30,167 bases of DNA, from IMG/VR virus record IMGVR_UViG_3300034407_000987, positions 1 through 30,167 of that record. The stretch is one strand, 5' to 3'. Below are positions 18,716 through 29,835 of this stretch, one piece after another; positions within the stretch are counted from its first letter, which is position 1, and every line of letters begins with the position of its first letter. The DNA comes from a virus. The translations under genes and the position numbers were made by a program. A model generated the notes under the pieces. That model was given only the letters and a program-made list of their open reading frames with translations. It searched no databases and was not told the origin of the DNA.

Positions 18716-20222
18716 TTAATCTTCCTGTGACAGAGTTATAAATTAGCTGGCCGCACACCCCAGTCTCTCCACTGAAACGATTCTTTAGAATACGAAGCGT
18801 TGTTAAATTTGCATTCTTTGCACTTTGTTGGTTACGTTCTAATCCAATTACTATATCGGATAATTGACCTATACCTGCAGATCCTCTTAATTGTGACAAA
18901 GATGTATGTGCTCCTTCTTCGTGACCTTTATCTGCTGGTCTTTTTAAATGCGAAACTAATATTAATCCAATTCCTGTTTCTTCTACTAATGATCTAAGTC
19001 TTGTCATTGCGTTATCAATCGCACGACGTTCATCACCACCTTCTAAACCTGATACAACAATACTTATATGATCTAATATAATATAATCACAAGCACAGCC
19101 TTTTGCTAAGTACCTAATTCTACTTATTAAATTATCTGAATCTAAAGATCCAAAATGATCATAAAATAAAACATTACCGTTTGATAATACTTTATCAAAA
19201 CTTTGTTTTAATTTATCTTCTTTAACAGAGCTGTCTATATGTAATGGTGTATCTAAATCAATTGATAACAAACCTAATGCAGTTTTCTTTACTGATTCTT
19301 CTAAAGCAATATAACCAATTTTTTTCTTATGATTTGTAATTAAATCAAAAGCTATTTCTTTGCATATAAGAGATTTACCAATACCACTTCCAGCAGTTAT
19401 AGTTACTAATTCTCCTCTTCTTAGTCCATGTGTTTTTAAATTTAATTGTTTAAAATGATAAGGAACAAACTCATTTACATTTTTAGTAGATATTTCTTTG
19501 TACAATGTACTACCATCAATAATACCATCTGGCCTATATACTTGTGCATCATAAATTGAACTAATTAATTCTTGCACTTTATTTTGTAGCAACATTTCAT
19601 TAGCATCTTTTAATTGCAAACTAACTATTCGTGCTTGACCTGGTGTAAACAATTCAGCACATTTTTTTGCGGCTTCTTTTCCAGGTGTATCTTGATCAAA
19701 ACATATAACTACATCTTCGTATTTATGTAAAAAGTCTAAACTATTTTTTAAATCTTTTTCTGCACCAGCAGCGCCATTTTTTATTGAAACAACTGGCCAT
19801 TTATTTCCAAAGACTTGTGATATAGTTAAAGCATCAATCTCGCCTTCAGTAATAACAATTCTTTTACCAGAACTTTTAAATAATTTTTCACCAAATAGTT
19901 TACTTAATTTAGTATCGCCTTTCCATGTAAATGATTTGTCTTTAAATCTAAACTTTGTAGCAGAACCATAATCCATTATATGACATTGTTTGCCATCGAC
20001 AGTACCAACTCTGTAATTAAATTTTCTACAGGTTTCTTCTGTTATTTTTCTAGCATTTAATTTTTTAAACTCGCCTATGATAGTACCTGTCTGCATTACT
20101 TCTTTCCCTCCATTTTCAAAATATTTACAACCGAAACAATATGCAGAATCATCATCATATCTTGCTAAATTGTCTTTCGAATCACAATTAGGACAAGGTT
20201 CATGTTGTATGAAGTTGGCCAT
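18687..20222 (-). CDS. DNA primase-helicase (T7 gp4-like)
   Basis: This 511-residue bifunctional replisome protein makes primers and unwinds the fork. The N-terminal zinc-binding domain has C10, C13, C29 and C32 (CPNC...CFGC). The TOPRIM primase core follows with VITEGEIDAL (about 125) and VICFDQDTPGKEAAKKC (about 170). The C-terminal RecA-like DnaB helicase domain has Walker A GSGIGKS (about 283-289), Walker B with YIILDHISIVV (about 385), and an LVSHLKRP segment (about 425) typical of the family. T7 gp4 is 566 residues. The start overlaps the 3' end of the hydroxymethylase-like gene by 23 bases. Confidence 0.96.
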   Translation of the reverse strand: MANFIQHEPCPNCDSKDNLARYDDDSAYCFGCKYFENGGKEVMQTGTIIGEFKKLNARKITEETCRKFNYRVGTVDGKQCHIMDYGSATKFRFKDKSFTWKGDTKLSKLFGEKLFKSSGKRIVITEGEIDALTISQVFGNKWPVVSIKNGAAGAEKDLKNSLDFLHKYEDVVICFDQDTPGKEAAKKCAELFTPGQARIVSLQLKDANEMLLQNKVQELISSIYDAQVYRPDGIIDGSTLYKEISTKNVNEFVPYHFKQLNLKTHGLRRGELVTITAGSGIGKSLICKEIAFDLITNHKKKIGYIALEESVKKTALGLLSIDLDTPLHIDSSVKEDKLKQSFDKVLSNGNVLFYDHFGSLDSDNLISRIRYLAKGCACDYIILDHISIVVSGLEGGDERRAIDNAMTRLRSLVEETGIGLILVSHLKRPADKGHEEGAHTSLSQLRGSAGIGQLSDIVIGLERNQQSAKNANLTTLRILKNRFSGETGVCGQLIYNSVTGRLIEYDKSTET

Positions 20223-20958
20223 GTGCTTGTTCCCATAAGTAATCTATAAATTCTTGACCGTTGTTAAACATCCAATAAGGTATCTCACCAATCGACGGAG
20301 ATAAATTATCTAAACATATTTTTGCTTGTTCCCAATTACGTTCATATAAATGTTGCGATCCTGCATTAATACTTAAGTTACCTAGTTTATAAGTCTTTTT
20401 GTGTTGATGCATTAATTGCAATAATGTATAGATTGAAATACAAGTAAAATTAAAAGCATCATAAGGCCAACCTAACCAAGCATCGCTTGATCTCATTGTC
20501 GCAATACAATGTAATCTTTCATCTCGTAATATAAATTGTAAACTACAAGTACATGGAATGTCTTTACTAGGACCTGGCTTTTCTCTCCATATATTAATTA
20601 CTGCTTGTCTTGAGTAATCATCGTTTGCTAATGTGTCTATTACATAACTTATTTGATCTACAATTTTTGGTCCATAACTTCCATAGAATCTTACATTGTC
20701 ATCGCTAAATTCTGGAATCATTTTACTATAAGGTGCAATAGTACTAACTCTATTATCTCCTGATAATATCCACGCAGCTTCAGCGTATCTAAATGCTGTA
20801 CCAATTTCTCTTTGCCATATATTTAAAAATGGAAAGTTCATATCAATAGTAGAATTATAGTTAAGTATTTCTTTAGTAACCATACCTCTTGGTAATCGTA
20901 CCATATCTTGTTTAAGGATATTACGAACTATATCTTGCCAAACTTGATTTATGTTCAT
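20200..20958 (-). CDS. Thymidylate-synthase-fold dNMP C5 (hydroxy)methyltransferase, dCMP-hydroxymethylase-like
   Basis: The protein is 252 residues and aligns with ThyA without gaps between the catalytic Cys and the pyrimidine-reading residue. E60 (E. coli E58), Y92, R117 (R126), C136 in IPCTC (C146), R156-S157..D159 (R166, S167, D169) and H203-L-Y205 (H207, Y209) are all present. At the position of E. coli Asn177, which recognises uracil, there is Asp (D167 in GWPYDAFNF). T4 dCMP hydroxymethylase has Asp here, and Asn-to-Asp change in thymidylate synthase switches preference to dCMP. This points to dCMP hydroxymethylation or methylation rather than dTMP synthesis; dUMP hydroxymethylation is less likely. 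It follows a P-loop kinase gene and has GAGGAG before the ATG. Family certain, reaction inferred. Confidence 0.85.
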   Translation of the reverse strand: MNINQVWQDIVRNILKQDMVRLPRGMVTKEILNYNSTIDMNFPFLNIWQREIGTAFRYAEAAWILSGDNRVSTIAPYSKMIPEFSDDNVRFYGSYGPKIVDQISYVIDTLANDDYSRQAVINIWREKPGPSKDIPCTCSLQFILRDERLHCIATMRSSDAWLGWPYDAFNFTCISIYTLLQLMHQHKKTYKLGNLSINAGSQHLYERNWEQAKICLDNLSPSIGEIPYWMFNNGQEFIDYLWEQAHGQLHTT

Positions 20959-21466
20959 GTTTAAACTCCTCTATAAATTTTTCTACTGATGTTTCTTCAT
21001 AATCAAATATTTTAAATTCAGGACACAAATCAAAAATTACTTGATAATGGTCATAAACAGAATCAACACTAGAAAAGTCTTCAGTGTCTAATCTACGTTG
21101 AAAGTATTTCATGACTAAATGTTTTGGTGGTAAACAACCAATATATAATGGTTTATATTCTTCACAAATCTTTTTGACTTGTGAAACATTATATTGGCAA
21201 CCGCCTCTAAACACATTTCCGTATATTAATTCAGATGGCCATAAACGATCTACAATTGCGTTCTTGTGCAATCTTAATGAATCAATATGTGAGTGATAAA
21301 GATCTTTATATTTTTTAATAATTTTACCGTCTTCGTTACGCCACACTAACTGACCACGATCTAAACTATTATGTATATATTTAAACTTTCCATTAAACTC
21401 TTTATGCAAAGCTTGGCCTAAAGTTGTTTTGCCAGAACAATCAGGTCCTTCTAGTACAATAATCAT
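20921..21466 (-). CDS. P-loop deoxynucleotide (or DNA 5-hydroxymethylpyrimidine) kinase
   Basis: This 181-residue protein starts MIIVLEGPDCSGKTTL, a thymidylate-kinase-type Walker A (GPDCSGKT, residues 7-14). IVDRLWPSELIYG (about 71-83) matches the DRx motif with the following 'SE.vYg' of dNMP kinases. A REDD-like lid is not clear; QRRLDTEDF (about 123-131) may serve. Its 3' end overlaps the start of the hydroxymethylase-like gene, so the two are probably made together, like T4 gp42 and dNMP kinase gp1. It could phosphorylate the hydroxymethylated nucleotide toward the triphosphate. P-loop kinases also act on 5-hydroxymethyl bases within DNA in hypermodified phages, so that role stays open. 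Its ATG overlaps the preceding gene's stop (ATGA). Confidence 0.85.
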   Translation of the reverse strand: MIIVLEGPDCSGKTTLGQALHKEFNGKFKYIHNSLDRGQLVWRNEDGKIIKKYKDLYHSHIDSLRLHKNAIVDRLWPSELIYGNVFRGGCQYNVSQVKKICEEYKPLYIGCLPPKHLVMKYFQRRLDTEDFSSVDSVYDHYQVIFDLCPEFKIFDYEETSVEKFIEEFKHEHKSSLARYSS

Positions 21467-21834
21467 TTTATTATTTTTGTCTCTCCTATGTTATAGTTTT
21501 TCTTAACAAACGCTTTTACTTTATCTACAGCGTCTTGTTGTTGGTTGTTAAAGAACGGTAATTCTAATTGACCAGTATTACTCATCCCACCGACAACACA
21601 AACAGAAATTGATTCAGGATTGCCTATTCCAACTTTATGAATGTCTCTTCCTTTTTCTATTGTGCCATCAAGTTTTATTACAAAGTGGTAACCTATTCCT
21701 AAGTTACCTGCTTCTAATTCTTGTTTATGAATATCGTGTCTGGATATATGTTCATTTGGCCCAGTCTTTGTTCTATGTATTTCTATAATTGTAGTTTTAT
21801 CTCTGTCTTTTAAACCAGGATTTTTATTTAGCAT
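21463..21834 (-). CDS. T7-lysozyme-like amidase domain, C-terminally short (likely RNAP regulator)
   Basis: The start is placed at the ATG at 21834, which has AAGGAG seven bases upstream; this gives 123 residues against 151 in T7 gp3.5. IIEIHRTKT carries the first zinc His (T7 H17), GIGYHFVIKLDGTIEKGRD carries the catalytic Tyr (T7 Y46), and ISVCVVGGM follows. The protein stops at NYNIGETKIIK, before the segment holding T7 H122, K128 and C130, so two of three zinc ligands and a catalytic Lys are missing. T7 lysozyme both cuts peptidoglycan and inhibits the phage RNA polymerase; amidase-dead forms can still inhibit. I infer regulation of the RNAP encoded upstream rather than lysis. No displaced His/Cys segment is seen after the stop. 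Confidence 0.82.
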   Translation of the reverse strand: MLNKNPGLKDRDKTTIIEIHRTKTGPNEHISRHDIHKQELEAGNLGIGYHFVIKLDGTIEKGRDIHKVGIGNPESISVCVVGGMSNTGQLELPFFNNQQQDAVDKVKAFVKKNYNIGETKIIK

Positions 21835-22237
21835 CGATCCACTCCTTTGGTACATTTTCATCTGCATATTTGAATCCATGAGTTTCACACCACATGCCAT
21901 ATGTTGTCTTGGATTTTTTATTTAATTTTAATTTTGAATTACTAAATACAAATCTAATATCTAATTTTGGATTTTGTTTTTGTATCAATAAATGTTTTTG
22001 TCTGTCTTTAGTACTAAACAAACCTTTTGCCTCAATAATAATTTTATTTGGTAGGACAAAATCGGGAGTGTAAGTAGTTTGCTTCTGTGGACGTGTGTAA
22101 GAAACTTTCAATACTTCATATTGATAATTTACTTTCATTTTATCCAATTGTGATGCAATTCTCACTTCAAATCCCGATCTAAATCCTAATTTCCTTGCGT
22201 TCTTTGTTGTCTTCGAATTAAAAGTCGTCCACGTCAT
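21824..22237 (-). CDS. Endonuclease I, Holliday-junction resolvase (T7 gp3-like)
   Basis: The protein resolves branched DNA and helps degrade host DNA. GFRSGFEVRIASQL, YTPDFVLPNKIIIEAKG, and DRQKHLLIQKQNPKLDIRFVFSNS match T7 endonuclease I, including the catalytic Glu, the PDF Asp, and the ExK (E.KG) metal site. CETHGFKYADENVPKEWI closes the domain as in T7. The frame is open upstream to 22336, but the ATG at 22237 leaves 18 residues before the FRSG motif, as in T7, so I chose it. The start then lies 20 bases inside the SSB gene. Its stop overlaps the amidase-like gene start by 11 bases. Confidence 0.94.
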   Translation of the reverse strand: MTWTTFNSKTTKNARKLGFRSGFEVRIASQLDKMKVNYQYEVLKVSYTRPQKQTTYTPDFVLPNKIIIEAKGLFSTKDRQKHLLIQKQNPKLDIRFVFSNSKLKLNKKSKTTYGMWCETHGFKYADENVPKEWIDAK

Positions 22238-22766
22238 TTGAAGAGCCTTCATCTTTTGGTTGATCAGTCTCTCCACTGTGTTTGTAACCTTCTTCAGCAG
22301 TAAATCCAAAACCTCCAGAGTCACCACCACTTCCACTTACTAATTCAATTACTTGTACTGCATTTAAGTATAAAGTTATTCCGTTATTACCTGCCGCACT
22401 ATAAGGTGCCGCGGTAGCAGAAACTTTTACTTGTGATCCACCAAATACATTTATATTATGTAATGGCTTTCCGTCTGAATCGAACAACGCTGGTTTGTTT
22501 TTAGTTTTAAATCTAAATACAATATTACCAGTTTCTTTTTTGTTATCGTCAAGTTCCTTAAAGTAAGGCATTTTACCTGTACTTTTTGGAAAATGTTTAG
22601 CAAACATCTCTTTTATTTTAGCCGCTAAAGGTTTTGCTTCTTCTGATGATAGCAGAAGATCTGTCTTGTATACTCCGTCTGGATTAAACTTAGTATCCGC
22701 TTTTGTAAGCCACGGATATTTAGCTGTGCCTTTTGGGGTTACAAGCTTTACATATTTGTCGTCCAT
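22218..22766 (-). CDS. Single-stranded DNA-binding protein (gp2.5-like)
   Basis: This 182-residue protein fits the T7 gp2.5 type: an OB-fold region with GTAKYPWLTKADTKFNPDGVYKTDLLL (about 13-39), NIVFRFKTKNKPALFD (about 81-96) and GGSQVKVSATAAPYSAAGNNGITLYLNAVQVI (about 109-140). A Gly/Ser linker and a strongly acidic tail ending DDF follow. The acidic tail with a terminal aromatic residue is the contact point for polymerase and helicase in T7. An AAAGGAAAATAACT leader precedes the ATG. It is the first gene after the RNA polymerase, and the gap between them holds promoter-like and palindromic sequence. Confidence 0.92.
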   Translation of the reverse strand: MDDKYVKLVTPKGTAKYPWLTKADTKFNPDGVYKTDLLLSSEEAKPLAAKIKEMFAKHFPKSTGKMPYFKELDDNKKETGNIVFRFKTKNKPALFDSDGKPLHNINVFGGSQVKVSATAAPYSAAGNNGITLYLNAVQVIELVSGSGGDSGGFGFTAEEGYKHSGETDQPKDEGSSNDVDDF

Positions 22767-22830
22767 AGTTATTTTCCTTTATGTTCTATAGTTACTAATA
22801 AGTGTACCTATTAATACACTAGTGTATAGA
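22767..22830 (-). promoter_or_regulatory. Regulatory region upstream of the SSB operon: GTGTA half-sites and CTATAG
   Basis: Between the RNAP stop and the SSB start lie GTGTA (22802-22806), TACAC (22815-22819) and GTGTA (22822-22826); the last two form the perfect 12-bp palindrome TACACTAGTGTA. The minus strand then reads GGTACACTTATTAG and AACTATAGAACATAAAGGA up to the start codon. A closely similar arrangement occurs at 30070-30105. T7 has promoter phi2.5 in this place. Both a phage promoter and an operator array are possible. Confidence 0.5.
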
Positions 22831-25245
22831 TTAACTGAAAAAATAGTCAGCTTCTAACACTTTGTTAATATCTAACTTACCTTTTTTTGGTAACTCAGGT
22901 ATTTTGTGATGTAATTTTTCTGGTATTAATGCATGAGCATGTTGCAGAAAAACTTCTAATGGATCTATTTGTGTGTACATATCAACAAAAGCCTGACGTA
23001 AACAATCATTTAACTTTTTTTGATTCGCCGCAAGAGTTCCAAAAGAATCGTGGACCATCGCAAAATCCACAATGCCTTTTTGTTTAGCATAAGCAACAGT
23101 CAACAACATAACTGTAGCATCAAGAGAATGGACAAAGTTTGGTGATATACCATTTGCTTGTCTTCTCTTATCTACTTTGTTTGTTGTAGATCTGATTCTT
23201 ATTCTACCCATCATTCTAGTTTTCAATACAGTCTCAGCTTGTGAATAATAAGCTTGACGTACTGGAAACCCTAATGGTGTTACCCAAAAGACTGGTGTTT
23301 TTTGTTCTGCACATAATCGTGCAACTTTTTGTAACCACTCCATTGCTTCAGGAGCTTTTACAACTACTTCACCAATTGAATCCCATATATTACCTGCTAA
23401 ATAAATTGCCGCTTGTTGTCTATTTTGAAACTGCAGGTCTTCTTTGTTGTCTAATCTTTTTTGTATATATTCATCTACAAATTCAGTTGCTGAGTATCTG
23501 GTAGATCCATATGGCAAAGTCATAACAGATCTTTTACAGGCTTTTCTATCAATGCCATATTCGTTCCATTCACTAGCAATCCATTTTTTCTCTGATTCAT
23601 CTTTTTCTAATTTATCTTCTACAACTTTAGATACCATACCATAAATATCTTTTGGTCTATCTGTTGGTAATAAATTAACAGCTTCTCCACCAACTTCGTC
23701 TCTTAACATTGCACTAAAATGTTGAAGACCATTACAAGAACCGTCTGAGTGTAATGGTAAATGAGAAACAAACTTTTCTCCATGTTTTAAATAACCTGCC
23801 CATTCAATACACGCAGCTAAAAATTGAAATGGTTCTTCCGCATCTTCCCAAAAATTATGTTTAAATGGTTCATCACCACATTTTTTAATTATTTCTGAAT
23901 TATCAAAAGTCCATTTAACACGTTCGTCTAAAGATAATTTATCTTGACCATATAAGTTTGCAATATGTATTGCTAAATATCTTACTCCATCTTTTCCTAA
24001 TGGTAATCCATCAGCAAATAATAATAAAGCTTTAGCAAAGTCTGGACCTTGTGGATTTAAGTATGGTGGAACTGGGTATGCTCTACCTCTAAAGTCTAAT
24101 GTCCACACAAAATATATTCCATCTTCTTTTTCAAATTTATTTGCTAAGTGTATTGTTTTTGCTAAACCTAAACGTTTTGATTTAGTTCTTTCATTAGCTG
24201 TATAAACAGCAACAGCTTTAGCTTTCCATTTTTTCAACGCTACTTTGTTTGTAGCAATATCGTGTGGTTTAGGTGGTAAATCTAATAATTCATTATTAAT
24301 TAATTTACCTCTACTTCTATTACCATAATTGTAACAAGTGTTAAGTACTAATAAAATATTTCTATTAACTTTCCATCTTGTTTTTTGTAAATCATTTATA
24401 GAATTATAAACTTCAGGCATATCATATTGTTTTAACTCTTCTAAGTAATTCATATGCGAAGTTATTCTATGTCCTTTAACTAAATATATTCCTTTTGTAT
24501 TTCTATAACCACCATTAAATGGATTAGTCCAGTCTGTTGGTTCAACAATCATTGGGAAATGTTCTGGATTTAAAAACTCATTAAACTTTTTAGAATTATT
24601 AATCCATTCTAAAGTTTTAGGTTCACATACAATAACATTATATGTTTTACCTCTATGTGGTTTTGCTTTAATACTTACTAAACCTGTCTTTTCTATAAAC
24701 ACTTGAAACAATGCTTCTCCTACATGGAGTTTTTCTCTTGTTGTCCAAGGTGTCCATTGAAAATTAACTTTATCTTTTTGTTGACTTAACTTATATTTTT
24801 TATATCCATAATGTACTGATCTGCTGTCAATATCTTTTAATACTTTATCTATTAAATATGGTTCTTTGTCATACATACCTGTCGACCATATTTCATCTTC
24901 TATTTTACCACCTAATGCGATTGCAGTTGCTGTAAATTTTCTGTCTTTTGTACTTATAGCGTCAATTATAAATCGTATAGTGATAGTTGATGCAACTAAA
25001 GGATCTATTTTCTTTAGTAATTCATCTGATATAAGTTTTGGTCCTGATTGTACCACACTTAATCTGTCTGTTATTCCTGTCGCTACTTCTTTAACTGTTG
25101 CTGATGTAATACGTTTTCCGTATGGAGTTAAAGACTCTGATTTTTTTTCAGCATGTTTAATAACACGATCTGTTTCACGTTTACCACCGTTCAGTCTCGA
25201 TTCTTCTTCAAGCTCTAATTGTCTGCGCTCTAAGTTATGTTGCAT
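22831..25245 (-). CDS. Single-subunit DNA-dependent RNA polymerase (T7 gp1-like)
   Basis: This 804-residue enzyme transcribes the middle and late phage genes. Catalytic motifs are clear: HSDGSCNGLQHFSAMLRDEVGG (motif A, T7 D537), KACKRSVMTLPYGSTRYS (motif B, T7 K631 and Y639) and FAMVHDSFGTLAAN (motif C, T7 D812). FVWTLDFRGRAYPVPPYLNPQGPD (about 380-403) is the expected region before the palm. The C-terminus ends DYFFS, recalling the FAFA-type foot of T7 RNAP. Length is lower than T7 (883), mainly in the N-terminal half, so promoter specificity and regulator contacts could differ. GGGAG precedes the ATG. It follows the terminator that ends the integrase transcript. Confidence 0.97.
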   Translation of the reverse strand: MQHNLERRQLELEEESRLNGGKRETDRVIKHAEKKSESLTPYGKRITSATVKEVATGITDRLSVVQSGPKLISDELLKKIDPLVASTITIRFIIDAISTKDRKFTATAIALGGKIEDEIWSTGMYDKEPYLIDKVLKDIDSRSVHYGYKKYKLSQQKDKVNFQWTPWTTREKLHVGEALFQVFIEKTGLVSIKAKPHRGKTYNVIVCEPKTLEWINNSKKFNEFLNPEHFPMIVEPTDWTNPFNGGYRNTKGIYLVKGHRITSHMNYLEELKQYDMPEVYNSINDLQKTRWKVNRNILLVLNTCYNYGNRSRGKLINNELLDLPPKPHDIATNKVALKKWKAKAVAVYTANERTKSKRLGLAKTIHLANKFEKEDGIYFVWTLDFRGRAYPVPPYLNPQGPDFAKALLLFADGLPLGKDGVRYLAIHIANLYGQDKLSLDERVKWTFDNSEIIKKCGDEPFKHNFWEDAEEPFQFLAACIEWAGYLKHGEKFVSHLPLHSDGSCNGLQHFSAMLRDEVGGEAVNLLPTDRPKDIYGMVSKVVEDKLEKDESEKKWIASEWNEYGIDRKACKRSVMTLPYGSTRYSATEFVDEYIQKRLDNKEDLQFQNRQQAAIYLAGNIWDSIGEVVVKAPEAMEWLQKVARLCAEQKTPVFWVTPLGFPVRQAYYSQAETVLKTRMMGRIRIRSTTNKVDKRRQANGISPNFVHSLDATVMLLTVAYAKQKGIVDFAMVHDSFGTLAANQKKLNDCLRQAFVDMYTQIDPLEVFLQHAHALIPEKLHHKIPELPKKGKLDINKVLEADYFFS

Positions 25246-25280
25246 TATTGCTCCCTTTTATACATTGATACAAATAGTTT
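25246..25280 (-). promoter_or_regulatory. Possible host-type promoter and leader for the RNAP gene
   Basis: Immediately after the terminator, the minus strand has TTGTTT, 17 bases, then TGTATAAAAGG and the RNAP start. This roughly fits a sigma70 -35/-10 pair, as would be needed to express the phage RNAP with the host enzyme. AT-rich sequence makes such matches common, so confidence is low. Confidence 0.25.
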
Positions 25281-25317
25281 AAAACAAAAGAATGTGCAGT
25301 AACTATCGGACTGCACA
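25281..25317 (-). terminator. Rho-independent terminator after the integrase gene
   Basis: TGTGCAGT (25293-25300) and ACTGCACA (25310-25317) form a perfect 8-bp stem with a 9-nt loop; on the minus strand the stem is followed by TTCTTTTGTTTT. It lies just past the integrase stop and before RNAP. It would separate the right-hand early block from RNAP transcription. Confidence 0.85.
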
Positions 25318-25328
25318 CTCTTATTTGT

Positions 25329-26342
25329 TTATGCATTTATGTCATAATTTGCCTCCAACACTTTAACAGCATCTTGTAAATTTTTTGGCGCAAGATGTGC
25401 GTAAGTTAATGTTTGATTTATATTTTTATGGCCAAGCCATTCTTTGACCACTTGTAAAGAGATACCTCTTTGTACAAGTCTAGACGCGCATGTGTGTCTA
25501 CAAGCATGCAATACAAATTGTTTGTCTTGTAACAAACCCATTTTTTCACGCACATAATTCCATTGAAATCTAATATCTGAATCTTTTAAATCAGCAAAAG
25601 GATATTTAGTTGTGTATCTTAAAAATATTTCTTGTACTCTTTTTGTTAAAGGTATAGTTCTCGGTTTTTCATTTTTAGTTTCATACACAGATAAATTACC
25701 ATTAACAATATCAGTTTTACAAGCATTTAATAATTCTGTTTTTCTTAAACCTGTATCTATTAACACAATAACAAAATCTAAAAAATAAAAGAATTCTGCA
25801 TTAAACAATATATCTAATATTTTATTTTCTTCGTCAAGTGAAAAAAATCTGGTTCTACCTTTGCCTTCTTTAAGCCATTCAATAACTGGTTTAGCAGGTA
25901 TATATTTTCTTTTATGTGCAAACGTCAACATTTTAGATAATGACGCTAATTTTCTATTTATAGTTCCGTTAGAATTACCTTGGTCTTTTAAAATATTTAC
26001 TAAATCATCAATAGTAGTTTCATCTATATTGTTAACATCAGTATTTTTTCCGATTAATTCTACAACATTGTTTGCGTTGTATAATTGTTTTACATCTGTA
26101 TTATACCAATAACGATCTGTAGTTTTTTTAAATAAATTTTGCAATGATAGTACAGAGTATTTTAATGGATCTAATTTTTGTAATTCGCTTTTTATATCTT
26201 TATTATGTTTCATACAATCTAAAACAACAGCAGAAATAATGTCTGCGTTGCTTTTTGTTCCATTAAAACTTTCACGAAATCTTTTACCGTCGTGTGTCAC
26301 ATCAACTTGATATGAATCTTTACCTCTTTGTCTTACTGGCAT
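25329..26342 (-). CDS. int: Tyrosine recombinase / phage integrase
   Basis: This 337-residue integrase has the full catalytic set: R200 in DTGLRKTELL, H279-x-x-R282 in LHACRHTCASR, H305 in WLGHKN, and the nucleophile Y314 in TLTYAHL. The N-terminal part (about 3-60) looks like an arm-binding region (RQRGKDSYQVDVTHDGKRFRESF), followed by a SAM-like core-binding domain (about 70-155). It indicates that this T7-like phage can integrate. T7-like pelagiphages are known to carry integrases that use host tRNA genes. I found no tRNA-like attP sequence in the flanking gaps. AAGGAG precedes the ATG. The 3' end is followed by a strong terminator. Confidence 0.95.
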   Translation of the reverse strand: MPVRQRGKDSYQVDVTHDGKRFRESFNGTKSNADIISAVVLDCMKHNKDIKSELQKLDPLKYSVLSLQNLFKKTTDRYWYNTDVKQLYNANNVVELIGKNTDVNNIDETTIDDLVNILKDQGNSNGTINRKLASLSKMLTFAHKRKYIPAKPVIEWLKEGKGRTRFFSLDEENKILDILFNAEFFYFLDFVIVLIDTGLRKTELLNACKTDIVNGNLSVYETKNEKPRTIPLTKRVQEIFLRYTTKYPFADLKDSDIRFQWNYVREKMGLLQDKQFVLHACRHTCASRLVQRGISLQVVKEWLGHKNINQTLTYAHLAPKNLQDAVKVLEANYDINA

Positions 26343-26742
26343 TTTCTCTCTCCTTTAATTTCTTTTTATGTTGATCTATAACTTTTTGTATATCGGGTGA
26401 TTGCCAACCTTTTGGTTTAACACAATCATAATAATAACTACGTTTAGATCTACCTCTAACTTTTTTCATGTTTGCTTTATGGACTTCTTTCCACGCAGCG
26501 TTGAATGGTAAGTTAAATAACCACGCTGTACCAATGATAACATAAGTTAAATCGACTAACGCATCTAATGCATCATCGGTTTTGTTTTCACCAATCGCAG
26601 CTTTTAATTCATTTAGTTCTTCTTCAATAAATTTTATTCTAAATGTAATTAAATCTGTTCTTACTTGAGGGATTGCTGGTTTTTTCTGTTGACGCCAACC
26701 AAACTTTTTGTGGAATGCTTCTATGTCTGACCAAAAACTCAT
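26320..26742 (-). CDS. MazG-like nucleoside triphosphate pyrophosphohydrolase
   Basis: I place the start at the ATG at 26742, which follows GGGGGAG; the frame is open upstream but overlaps the previous ORF. The product is about 140 residues. The all-alpha NTP-PPase pattern is visible: FIEEELNELKAAI (EExxEL) followed by DDALDALVDLTYVIIGTA (DALvDl.YV..G). ANMKKVRGRSK and CVKPKGWQSPDI near the end are typical of phage members. Such enzymes hydrolyse dNTPs to dNMPs; some phage forms are dCTP-specific and serve base replacement. Substrate cannot be read from sequence. With the hydroxymethylase-like gene in the same genome, a dCTP-removing role is an attractive inference. Its stop overlaps the integrase start. 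Confidence 0.8.
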   Translation of the reverse strand: MSFWSDIEAFHKKFGWRQQKKPAIPQVRTDLITFRIKFIEEELNELKAAIGENKTDDALDALVDLTYVIIGTAWLFNLPFNAAWKEVHKANMKKVRGRSKRSYYYDCVKPKGWQSPDIQKVIDQHKKKLKERENASKTKR

Positions 26743-26939
26743 AATCTCCCCCATTGTATGTCTCTGTGTAATTGAAACACTGATGTTTTCAATTTTAATC
26801 TTAATTTGCCCAATGTACATAGCTTCTTTACTATTGGATCCTTAGGATTTTCTCTAATAAAATTAACAAAATGCTCTTGTTGGCCATAAAACGCCAAGCC
26901 AAGACTATTTAATAATGCAATTGTTTCTCTTCTATTCAT
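26739..26939 (-). CDS. Hypothetical protein, 66 aa
   Basis: The ATG at 26939 overlaps the stop of the preceding 57-aa ORF in the string ATGAATAG, which suggests coupled translation because no separate ribosome binding site is obvious. The product begins MNRRETIALLNSLGLAFYGQ and has a basic C-terminal half (LGKLRLKLKTSVFQLHRD). I recognise no family. Its stop overlaps the start of the MazG-like gene by four bases, so it belongs to the same operon. Confidence 0.5.
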   Translation of the reverse strand: MNRRETIALLNSLGLAFYGQQEHFVNFIRENPKDPIVKKLCTLGKLRLKLKTSVFQLHRDIQWGRL

Positions 26940-27105: not shown

Positions 27106-27921
27106 TTAATAACCTGCTACATTCCAAAAATATGCACCATCGGAAGCATATTCTTTAATAAATCTCCAAGCTTTGGCGTCATAGTTTGGAGCCGACGGAA
27201 AGGGTGGTAAAAATTTTTTATTCTCATAAGTAGTAAACGCCATCGGGTGAGAATAAACTTTTGCTTTTCCTAATTCGCCAGCTTTCATATTTCTTGCTAC
27301 TGCAACTGCATGAAACTCACAATCAGGCCAAGCTATTTGCATTGATCTTTGTAAAACACCGGTTGATACAACTGACCACATCTCTTTTGGTTTTATATTC
27401 ATTTGTAACATAGCCTTTACAAGACAAGCGATGATAGTTGGGTCATCTCTAAGTCCTGGTTGGAAATAATATGAAGAAGGATTGTTCTCGCAGTATTCAC
27501 GTGCAGATTTGCGTAGTCCATTCATACCATAAATCTTTTTAAAATAAACCTCAGCTCCGTAGTCTATACATCGCTGAACATGTGGTGTTATTTCTTTAGA
27601 TTCAGGAACAAACAACACACAAGTTTTTCCCCATTTTCTTGCCAACCATGACAAAGAGATTCCCGCATAACCAAATCTCGGTTGTACATAAACAACGTGT
27701 GTAGCGTTGAGCTTCGACATTCTGTAATGTATCGCTCGTGCTTTTGTTCCGACTTCTAATAAGTCTTCACGAACCACGTTAATACCTTCATGTTCAACGA
27801 TCTTCGGTGCTGGATAAGGACTTTCATAATCCTTAACCAAATCCAAATACGATTGTGCATTTGGAAACTGTAAATTTATATCTTTATTTATTCCGTCAAT
27901 TAAATGTTCTGAATAACCCAT
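27106..27921 (-). CDS. Fold-type II PLP-dependent enzyme (ACC deaminase / D-cysteine desulfhydrase-like)
   Basis: This 271-residue protein resembles the tryptophan-synthase-beta superfamily. VVREDLLEVGTKARAIHYRM (about 49-68) matches the 'kReDl..gGNKxRkl' motif, and K60 is the expected PLP Schiff-base lysine. THVVYVQPRFGYAGISLSWLARKWGKTCVLFVP (about 73-105) corresponds to the 'sNHa.a.A..a...g' nucleotide-like helix, though the usual Asn-His is absent. A late SVVSTGVLQRSMQIAWP (about 183-199) replaces the usual Gly-rich phosphate loop. At 271 residues it is shorter than typical members (about 325-340), so it may be specialised. It lies between a DNA-modification-transferase-like gene and a coiled-coil ORF. 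PLP enzymes occur in phage thymine hypermodification loci; a role acting on a base-linked amino acid is inference. Confidence 0.75.
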   Translation of the reverse strand: MGYSEHLIDGINKDINLQFPNAQSYLDLVKDYESPYPAPKIVEHEGINVVREDLLEVGTKARAIHYRMSKLNATHVVYVQPRFGYAGISLSWLARKWGKTCVLFVPESKEITPHVQRCIDYGAEVYFKKIYGMNGLRKSAREYCENNPSSYYFQPGLRDDPTIIACLVKAMLQMNIKPKEMWSVVSTGVLQRSMQIAWPDCEFHAVAVARNMKAGELGKAKVYSHPMAFTTYENKKFLPPFPSAPNYDAKAWRFIKEYASDGAYFWNVAGY

Positions 27922-28858
27922 TCTTATTTCCTTCTATTTTTAATTTAGACAATCTTGTTATTTGATGTGGTTGTAAGTGTTCATATCCTTTTGGAACATA
28001 ATTTCCCCAATATCTAACTGCGTCACAAACTACATCTTCAAGTGAGTATGGTTGGTTGCCTGTTAGATCTACAAGATCTTGCATGCATTGTTCGTACCAA
28101 AATTGTTTCTTAATTTTTTCGTCATTGACGTACATCAAATCAAAACCTCGAATACAATTAGAACCATAATAACAATGACTATCAGGATCCACGAGTTGAG
28201 GTTGATACTCTGCTATATCCATTACGAATGCAGTTAAAACAAAATGGTATCTTTTAAGACCATTCTTTACATGCCAATTTAAACAGAAATCTACGGCTTC
28301 TTTTATTCCACGTAGTTGCCAATTTTGAAACCATTCGAGGACGTCATCAACTAATCTTGGTGCGTATTCGCACAAGTATAGTTTGCCACCAGTTTTATAT
28401 CCAGATCCCGACGGCTTTGGAAAGGGAGGAATCTGGTTTCCTAGTGACGTGAACATTACGCCCTCGAAGGCTTTAATATAGTCGACCATTTTTTCAAGTG
28501 TACCTTGTTCGGCAACTTTGGCGGCTATACTATTCCGATAACCGTGATCTTTAGGTCCGAAGCTCGCACCTGACCCGGTCATTCTGTGGAATAAATATAA
28601 GTATAACCACTCTCTCAACGGAAATACATATTTTTTATATCGTCTTTGTGCAGGTGATTCATCACCATATGTTAAGTCTTCAAGTACATTTGAAAACCCT
28701 GCGTATCGACGGTTTACACAATTATAAATTGTTACGTTATCCTGCAAAGGATCGTTACAAAGAGTTGAGGGAGGAAGTAACCCATTGTTCCGATCTTGCA
28801 GGATTTTTGCTCGATGATAGTAGGACATAAAATCGTTTACAAAATTAGTCCTTAACAT
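27896..28858 (-). CDS. Amino-acid:DNA transferase / 5-hmdU DNA kinase helical-domain family protein (putative)
   Basis: This 320-residue protein resembles the alpha-glutamyl/putrescinyl thymine pyrophosphorylase and 5-hmdU-DNA-kinase helical family from hypermodified phages. The order of motifs fits: SYYHRAKIL.. (12-20), then a P....NDPL....YNCVNRRYAGFSN segment (about 29-57, like 'PWtdDpil..ykf.NvyR..DR.t'), then AFVMDIAEYQPQL with YYGSNCIRGFDL (about 210-241, like 'f.aYqi..Dl.y....GpGa.rGl'), then SLEDVVCDAVRYWGNY (about 272-287, like 'dvEhslCeydKY.r'). In such phages these proteins attach amino acids or amines to pyrophosphorylated 5-hydroxymethyluracil in DNA. The gene overlaps the PLP enzyme and SGNH genes by 26 and 7 bases. 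Similarity is by eye, so the family is likely but the reaction is not established. Confidence 0.62.
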   Translation of the reverse strand: MLRTNFVNDFMSYYHRAKILQDRNNGLLPPSTLCNDPLQDNVTIYNCVNRRYAGFSNVLEDLTYGDESPAQRRYKKYVFPLREWLYLYLFHRMTGSGASFGPKDHGYRNSIAAKVAEQGTLEKMVDYIKAFEGVMFTSLGNQIPPFPKPSGSGYKTGGKLYLCEYAPRLVDDVLEWFQNWQLRGIKEAVDFCLNWHVKNGLKRYHFVLTAFVMDIAEYQPQLVDPDSHCYYGSNCIRGFDLMYVNDEKIKKQFWYEQCMQDLVDLTGNQPYSLEDVVCDAVRYWGNYVPKGYEHLQPHQITRLSKLKIEGNKNGLFRTFN

Positions 28859-29835
28859 AATGGACCTCTATAAAACTTAGGTGCTATGTGCACTGACTGA
28901 GGTTTTTCCATTACATCGAATGATAATTCTTTTTGATCATTCAAGAAATCTTTCGGGTGTTTGTAACACTTCCATCCATGTTTATGAGTAAAGCGTTCTA
29001 TTTGTTGTGTCATGTGATCTACAAGATGTTGGCGTTCTTCTTGTGAACCATAGTATGGTGTGTTTTTATACCAACCTGTTTTAGGTATACGTCTTGATAT
29101 ATTTTCAATTGGCAACGGACACACAACTTCGATACTTGGTATTTTAAACTCAGCCACAACCTCTTGTATTTGTTTTTCATATTCTCTTAACAATACATGT
29201 AAAGTTCTTGTCGGCATTCTTCGTCTTAAAATATGATGACGAATGTCTATGTTACCAAAGTAAAATGTAATATGTTTTAAATTACTTTTACCATCTACTA
29301 AGTGTGCAATATATGGTCTTACATAATTAACTAATCTATATTGTAATGCACCATGTAAAGTCTTTGCATCATTACGATCAACCATTGTATCTGGCATCCA
29401 AACCGAATTAGCGTGGCTGTCTCCGACAATTAAACTTTGTAAGCCTAATTTGTGCATACGAACAACAGGCATATTTCTGCATTTTTCAGTAAGTGCATTC
29501 CAATCGAAATCATTCCATTCTTTAGAACCACTTGAACATCTTGCTTTACCAAGTGCACCGAAATCTGGACAAGGTATATCTAATGACATAAATCCATTCT
29601 TTGCGTCAAGAAACTTTTGAAACGGCGATGGATCTTTTGCGCCTCCAAACATATTTAAGGCACCACTCCATTCCATACCATGATACAGTAAAATCATATC
29701 ATAATCTTTCCAATCGTCATTCGCGCCGATGATAGTCGAGTTTGTGAGTTTACCCCATATTCTTGGCCAACTTCCTCGATGCGAGTATTGACTTTTTGAT
29801 ATTGCGTAATGTATACTTGCTATTGCTTTTTTCAT
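28852..29835 (-). CDS. SGNH/GDSL-type hydrolase-like protein
   Basis: This 327-residue protein has an N-terminal region of unknown type (about 1-130, with YDMILLYHGMEWSGALNMFGG) followed by an SGNH-like domain. LIVGDSHANSVW (S140 in GDS) fits block I with the nucleophile Ser, ITFYFGNIDIRHH (about 189-201) fits block III with G.N.D, and PQSVHIAPKFY (H316) fits the C-terminal His block; the Asp three residues before that His is absent here. Family members are esterases or acyltransferases. The gene is in an overlapping set with the transferase-like and PLP genes, so it may add or remove an acyl or ester group in the same pathway. GGAG precedes the ATG. Confidence 0.65.
   Translation of the reverse strand: MKKAIASIHYAISKSQYSHRGSWPRIWGKLTNSTIIGANDDWKDYDMILLYHGMEWSGALNMFGGAKDPSPFQKFLDAKNGFMSLDIPCPDFGALGKARCSSGSKEWNDFDWNALTEKCRNMPVVRMHKLGLQSLIVGDSHANSVWMPDTMVDRNDAKTLHGALQYRLVNYVRPYIAHLVDGKSNLKHITFYFGNIDIRHHILRRRMPTRTLHVLLREYEKQIQEVVAEFKIPSIEVVCPLPIENISRRIPKTGWYKNTPYYGSQEERQHLVDHMTQQIERFTHKHGWKCYKHPKDFLNDQKELSFDVMEKPQSVHIAPKFYRGPLC

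Follow-up and report, generated by a model that had tools for sequence, protein, structure and literature searches.

A six-gene set in a pelagiphage genome fragment points to a probable cytosine-based variant of phage DNA hypermodification

The window analysed here is a 30,167-base fragment of an HTVC019P-like pelagiphage (IMG/VR record IMGVR_UViG_3300034407_000987), with Pelagibacter phages (SAR11-type) as its nearest annotated relatives. It carries, all on the minus strand, a set of six genes that probably encodes a cytosine-based variant of known phage hypermodification (Table 1). Three of them would provide the precursor: a hydroxymethylase of the thymidylate synthase (TS) family, a deoxynucleoside monophosphate (dNMP) kinase-like protein and a MazG-like pyrophosphohydrolase. 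The others form a cassette composed of an SGNH-like protein, a transferase-fold protein and a pyridoxal phosphate (PLP)-dependent enzyme. Most likely, this set makes 5-hydroxymethylcytosine (hmC), puts it into phage DNA and adds an amino-acid-derived group. That the window encodes such a two-stage hypermodification of cytosine appears fairly probable to us, on the basis of gene content, intact motifs, selector residues, folds and linkage across lineages.

Table 1. Members of the six-gene set (positions in the window) and loci of other contigs mentioned in the text
Feature	Location	Strand	Basis
Hydroxymethylase, predicted dCMP 5-hydroxymethylase (thymidylate synthase family)	20200..20958	-	Pfam match, selector residues, PMC5175136 rule
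P-loop dNMP-kinase-like protein, candidate hm-dCMP kinase	20921..21466	-	PHROG match, invariant motifs
MazG-like (PF01503) NTP pyrophosphohydrolase, candidate dCTPase	26320..26742	-	Pfam match, metal-site motif
PLP-dependent fold-type II enzyme, phage M6 gp052 family	27106..27921	-	Profile match; Lys60 invariant
Predicted base-flipping transferase, amino acid:DNA transferase fold (PaMx11 gp46)	27896..28858	-	Structure model
SGNH-like protein (phrog_13881), cassette marker: N-terminal alpha/beta domain and SGNH/GDSL-fold domain	28852..29835	-	Model, profile
PLP domain with DNA-methylase loci	L007:2326-4764; L003:10846-13268; L004:9111-10702		
ORF with sub-threshold glycosyltransferase matches	L105:11517-12368; L097:11149-12117		

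The choice of the base is indicated by the hydroxymethylase. Its open reading frame (ORF) matches the Pfam model Thymidylat_synt PF00303 (E 3.4e-22, 79.3 bits for a curated cut-off of 24.3), and the CMP 5-hydroxymethylase MilA is its best match among solved structures. The nucleophile is Cys136. Asp167 stands at the position of Asn177 in ThyA, and the dUMP-type Asn selector of M6-type thymidine hypermodification is thus not seen in the window enzyme; Arg117 and Ser157 occupy the deoxyribose-preferring positions (Lys133' and Ala176 in MilA). Comparison of MilA, BcmA, the T4 dCMP hydroxymethylase, the SPO1 dUMP hydroxymethylase and E. coli ThyA has associated Asp with cytosine users and Asn with uracil users, a rule drawn from few characterised enzymes, as well as Arg/Ser with deoxyribose and Lys/Ala with ribose (PMC5175136). 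In a combined alignment of 139 TS-family rows, Asp is found in 135, Asn in 3 (all canonical ThyAs) and a gap in one, with Ser in 138 and Arg in 137; the M6 hydroxymethylase gp058, compared separately, has Asn. The cassette-linked hydroxymethylases that were scored, from several lineages, all carry Asp where ThyA has Asn177. Asp177-type TS and PF01503 were moreover enriched in modified-cytosine contigs in the MetaGPA study (PMC8670742). Because of the Asp selector, the published rule and this association, cytosine seems favoured over uracil as the modified base, a choice that the original prediction had left undecided. The window enzyme is predicted to be a dCMP 5-hydroxymethylase, adding a hydroxymethyl rather than a methyl group.

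The kinase-like ORF matches the PHROG thymidylate kinase (E 1.3e-13), and no Pfam model exceeds its cut-off with it. The Walker A and DRxW motifs are invariant (G7, G12, K13, D73, R74) in 17 aligned kinase sequences. T4-type clamp loaders (gp44-like) in large contigs, picked up when the kinase profile drifted in the third round, were discarded, and solely kinases adjoining a hydroxymethylase were kept. The original prediction took the overlap with the hydroxymethylase gene as the sign of a partner kinase. The overlap is indeed there (38 nt), but it was rejected as a pointer to this role, being unspecific since other operon neighbours overlap as well (amidase/kinase by 4 nt, hydroxymethylase/primase by 23 nt). 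For the MazG-like gene, the longest ORF spans 26320-26820, the likelier start being the ATG at 26742 behind GGGGGAG, in agreement with the end position given in the original prediction. Its product matches PF01503 (E 4.8e-13, 49.8 bits, cut-off 21.3), with an EExxE...DxxxD metal site that is invariant in 20 aligned MazG-like sequences. Action of the kinase on hm-dCMP and of the MazG-like enzyme on dCTP are candidate activities, and MazG, kinase and hydroxymethylase genes are clustered in many divergent phages, that is, beyond chance. The MazG-like gene had also been placed downstream in a modification transcript: it does lie downstream of the cassette in the reading direction and is co-directional with it, but the single transcript finds no backing in a promoter scan, which gave no excess of promoter-like sites in the window over shuffled sequence.

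Other arrangements were encountered around these precursor genes. In AP013540 (L167:19657-21678), MazG, kinase, an Asp-type TS of ThyA-like lineage and a dCMP deaminase are adjacent, in a block occupying the slot of the window's amidase, kinase and hydroxymethylase. In contig L063, a DUF1599 gene (nucleotide modification associated domain 1; L063:9023-9334) is located between MazG and hydroxymethylase, and L105 and L097 have a similar small ORF ahead of the hydroxymethylase. In the window itself, an integrase-like gene (25329-26342, 42% identity to the annotated HTVC200P integrase) adjoins the MazG-like gene, the cassette being just upstream. No radical-SAM gene was noticed among the window ORFs, for which no profile search aimed at radical-SAM was made.

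The association between cassette and hydroxymethylase was followed in two samples, the window and most contigs being fragments. The first queries gave 57 loci holding SGNH, transferase and PLP genes. A hydroxymethylase is present in 34 of these 57, and in the remaining 23 the cassette begins at most 1,016 nt from the contig end on the upstream side; the MazG-like gene is found in 30 of the 34 loci that have a hydroxymethylase. With the transferase as sole query, a second sample of 78 viral loci was obtained, comprising PLP in 73, SGNH in 70 and hydroxymethylase in 63, all of the Asp type. Three second-sample loci have no hydroxymethylase nearby although 5 kb of sequence flanks them on either side; each has one elsewhere in the contig, with Asp again. 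The linked hydroxymethylase typically lies within about 1 kb, on the same strand. By comparison, a match of any kind to the hydroxymethylase is seen in 1033 of the 50,697 phage records. The cassette is met again in hundreds of viral contigs, and transferase relatives occur in at least 563, while the window transferase has no match among the phage collection records. The 84,980 bacterial and archaeal genomes yielded 8 transferase loci, all in metagenome bins, which are probably binned phage DNA.

Gene order further connects the two modules. The six genes are contiguous in contig L065 (SGNH, transferase, PLP, MazG, kinase, hydroxymethylase) as well as in contig L096 (MazG, SGNH, transferase, PLP, kinase, hydroxymethylase). 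With the hydroxymethylase nearly always accompanying the cassette, there is good support for the proposal that the precursor genes supply a modification cassette. In the hydroxymethylase tree, which has long branches, the cassette appears in three separated groups; three changes of this label are required, and supported branches impose at least two of these. In L063, a related cassette stands beside a T4-gp42-type enzyme (identity to the window proteins of 68% for the transferase, 75% for PLP and 46% for SGNH). Judging from these tree groups and the gp42-type neighbour, the cassette has been joined to hydroxymethylases of different kinds, each time with the Asp selector. The phages HTVC200P and HTVC119P have the kinase and hydroxymethylase pair without the cassette, and the transferase was found in none of the 23 records searched (pair-without-cassette and comparison records). 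Since the pair often occurs without the cassette and the cassette nearly always with a hydroxymethylase, the dependence runs one way, which fits a self-sufficient precursor module and a cassette that depends on it. The original prediction had named an equal split in both directions as contrary evidence; the co-occurrence across related phages is one-sided instead, the pair without cassette being common.

No Pfam match was obtained for the window transferase. Its structure model (pLDDT 79.8) aligns best with PaMx11 gp46, the 5-PmdU glycinyltransferase (8z2n), over 206 residues with a root-mean-square deviation of 3.6 and Z 11.6, a score that helical folds may reach by chance. The next structural matches are 8-oxoguanine glycosylases, and a viral model named amino acid:DNA transferase (ADDT-domain) matches the transferase model with E 6e-18. 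The protein is thus predicted to have a DNA-glycosylase-like base-flipping fold, and its resemblance to the ADDT enzymes that modify thymidine is confined to the fold: the earlier assignment to a transferase family known for uracil holds at this level, and fails at that of sequence and profile. The PLP profile aligns with M6 gp052 (hhalign probability 97.4, E 1.3e-11, 221 columns), Lys60 is invariant in the aligned proteins, and M6 gp052 is likewise preceded by an ADDT gene. From its sequence, the PLP enzyme is a member of the phage M6 gp052 family. A second DNA-modification setting for this family is its association with DNA methylases (Table 1): Erythrobacter phages R6L and ZS04 have a related PLP domain (37% identity) embedded in an ORF for a DNA methylase, and Microcystis phage Mae-JY30 has it after such an ORF. 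In R6L and Mae-JY30, the search turned up no TS-family gene.

We infer from these elements all the catalytic steps of the following scheme, as well as dCTP as the MazG substrate, which amino acid is attached and the structure of the end product. At the nucleotide level, the hydroxymethylase would turn dCMP into 5-hydroxymethyl-dCMP, the overlapping kinase would give the diphosphate and the host nucleoside-diphosphate kinase the triphosphate. The MazG-like enzyme would degrade dCTP, by which plain cytosine would be kept from the DNA and dCMP recycled to the hydroxymethylase. T4 gp42, gp1 and gp56 act in this manner. T4 or XP12 had both been put forward as models; the T4-like route to hmC would fit better, and an XP12 reading, with 5-methylcytosine, looks less likely. 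After replication, the transferase-fold protein would flip hmC from the DNA and attach an amino acid, which may be Gly or Ser by analogy with M6 and ViI. The PLP enzyme would then trim this amino acid, for example by decarboxylation, to give an aminoalkyl-type cytosine. The M6 and ViI end products are given as 5-(2-aminoethyl)- and 5-(2-aminoethoxy)methyl-deoxyuridine (PMC6449724), and a cytosine analogue of these would be the natural guess here. The SGNH-like protein, a regular partner, perhaps activates or caps the hydroxymethyl group. In a more specific version, which can be put forward only tentatively, the SGNH-like protein would take the place of a DNA kinase in activating hmC in DNA (e.g., through an ester leaving group), followed by amino acid addition by the transferase and PLP tailoring, and this chemistry would be widespread.

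The SGNH-like protein deserves separate consideration. Its model is of good quality (pLDDT 91.0), the second domain adopts an SGNH/GDSL fold (Z 14.9), and the GDSH and GNIDIRHH-type motifs are invariant. This conservation would also suit an acyl or sugar decoration of hmC, for which the SGNH-like protein would be the main decorator, with the transferase-fold and PLP proteins as secondary actors. Such a role is consistent with the N-terminal part, which in 12 of the 35 members weakly matches the T4 beta-glucosyltransferase (E 6.2e-5 at best), and with the 44RR cassette type, which has SGNH without transferase and PLP. However, this T4 similarity is under the curated cut-off and is not seen in the window protein, and in the main cassette type SGNH is no more constant than transferase and PLP, which makes the explanation rather unlikely. 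The 44RR type is a second cassette type, of T4-like phages in which ThyA is accompanied by another TS-family gene. In Aeromonas phage 44RR2.8t, ORF233c (L005:6001-8388) joins an SGNH-like half to a C-half that shows a weak match to HMUDK_hel, the 5-hmdU DNA kinase model; all 9 of 9 aligned relatives of this C-half match it (best E 1.6e-17), and HMUDK_hel-related neighbours of SGNH homologues occur unfused elsewhere. In large T4-like cassette contigs, the ORF with sub-threshold glycosyltransferase matches comes after SGNH, shortly before a clamp-loader-like gene.

Several observations weigh against amino acid hypermodification of cytosine. PF18724 (ADDT) matches no transferase in 32 members or 13 viral records, although M6 and PhiW-14 do match, and profile comparison of the transferase gave no match with M6 gp051/gp055 or with the 44RR C-half. 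Thymidine hypermodification pathways employ a 5-hydroxymethyluracil (hmU) DNA kinase; no HMUDK_hel was found in the window, its 37.8-kb relative (both possibly fragments) or ten cassette records, and the SGNH-like protein is a tentative candidate for the activation step. A dCMP-deaminase-family protein (PF00383) is encoded by several cassette phages, and deamination of hm-dCMP is conceivable. Finally, the two samples share a few contigs and hold many close relatives: their counts are not independent, and co-occurrence is confounded by kinship.

The deaminase, together with a transferase fold and a PLP family that are those of thymidine-modifying phages, would fit a uracil-based hypermodification of the M6/PhiW-14 kind, replacing thymine, where hm-dUMP would be made, or hm-dCMP deaminated, and the cassette would decorate hmU. 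This is quite unlikely in our opinion: the scored cassette-linked hydroxymethylases all differ from the M6 enzyme at the selector, no HMUDK_hel was found in the SGNH-transferase-PLP records searched, and neither the window nor its 37.8-kb relative was found to encode the deaminase. The least probable explanation is a simple replacement ending at hmC or 5-methylcytosine, the cassette doing for example small-molecule or surface chemistry: HTVC200P and HTVC119P show that the precursor pair is viable alone, but the near-constant, close and same-strand company of cassette and Asp-type hydroxymethylase, as well as the base-flipping fold of the transferase, speak against it.

If the hypermodification of cytosine by an amino-acid-derived group is true, the genes for a cytosine base without prior chemical description are present in hundreds of viral contigs, and a chemistry of amino-acid transferase and PLP enzyme that is known from thymine serves cytosine too. 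This would bear on the restriction resistance of ocean phages, including SAR11 phages, on the success of virome sequencing and on efforts to find novel DNA-modifying enzymes.

Among known systems, the M6/PaMx11 (Pseudomonas), PhiW-14 (Delftia) and ViI (Salmonella) thymidine systems share with the window a TS-family hydroxymethylase and the gene order of M6 gp051-gp052, where a PALP-type PLP gene comes after one with the HhH-type transferase fold. The window differs by Asp in place of Asn, an extra SGNH gene, and the lack of a detected HMUDK or ADDT sequence match. HTVC023P-type pelagiphages, with TS and aGPT-PPlase1, are likewise SAR11 phages in which a TS-family gene has a predicted transferase for base modification in its vicinity, but they were described as thymidine-type and M6-like, the SGNH/PLP cassette not being reported there (PMC9599517). 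The 5-hydroxymethylcytosine carbamoyltransferase contigs of MetaGPA similarly tie Asp177 TS and PF01503 to modified cytosine (PMC8670742), whereas the carbamoyltransferase C-terminus domain was not found in the related trio-bearing records searched; this PF16861 route was rejected, with 0 of 23 trio-bearing or comparison records. The T4 hmC system (gp42, gp1, gp56 and glucosyltransferases) has a dCMP-type hydroxymethylase, a dNMP kinase and a small pyrophosphohydrolase as well, replaces cytosine before replication for later decoration, and has its gp42-type enzyme represented in some cassette contigs. In contrast, the window would decorate with SGNH-like, transferase-fold and PLP genes rather than known glucosyltransferases, and its hydroxymethylase is of another TS lineage. 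The CmoX/CmoY system also yields an amino-acid-decorated cytosine in phage DNA, 5-carboxymethylcytosine-glycine amide (PMC12783734), but through a carboxymethyltransferase and an amide ligase, where the window would combine hmC with a transferase/PLP pair.

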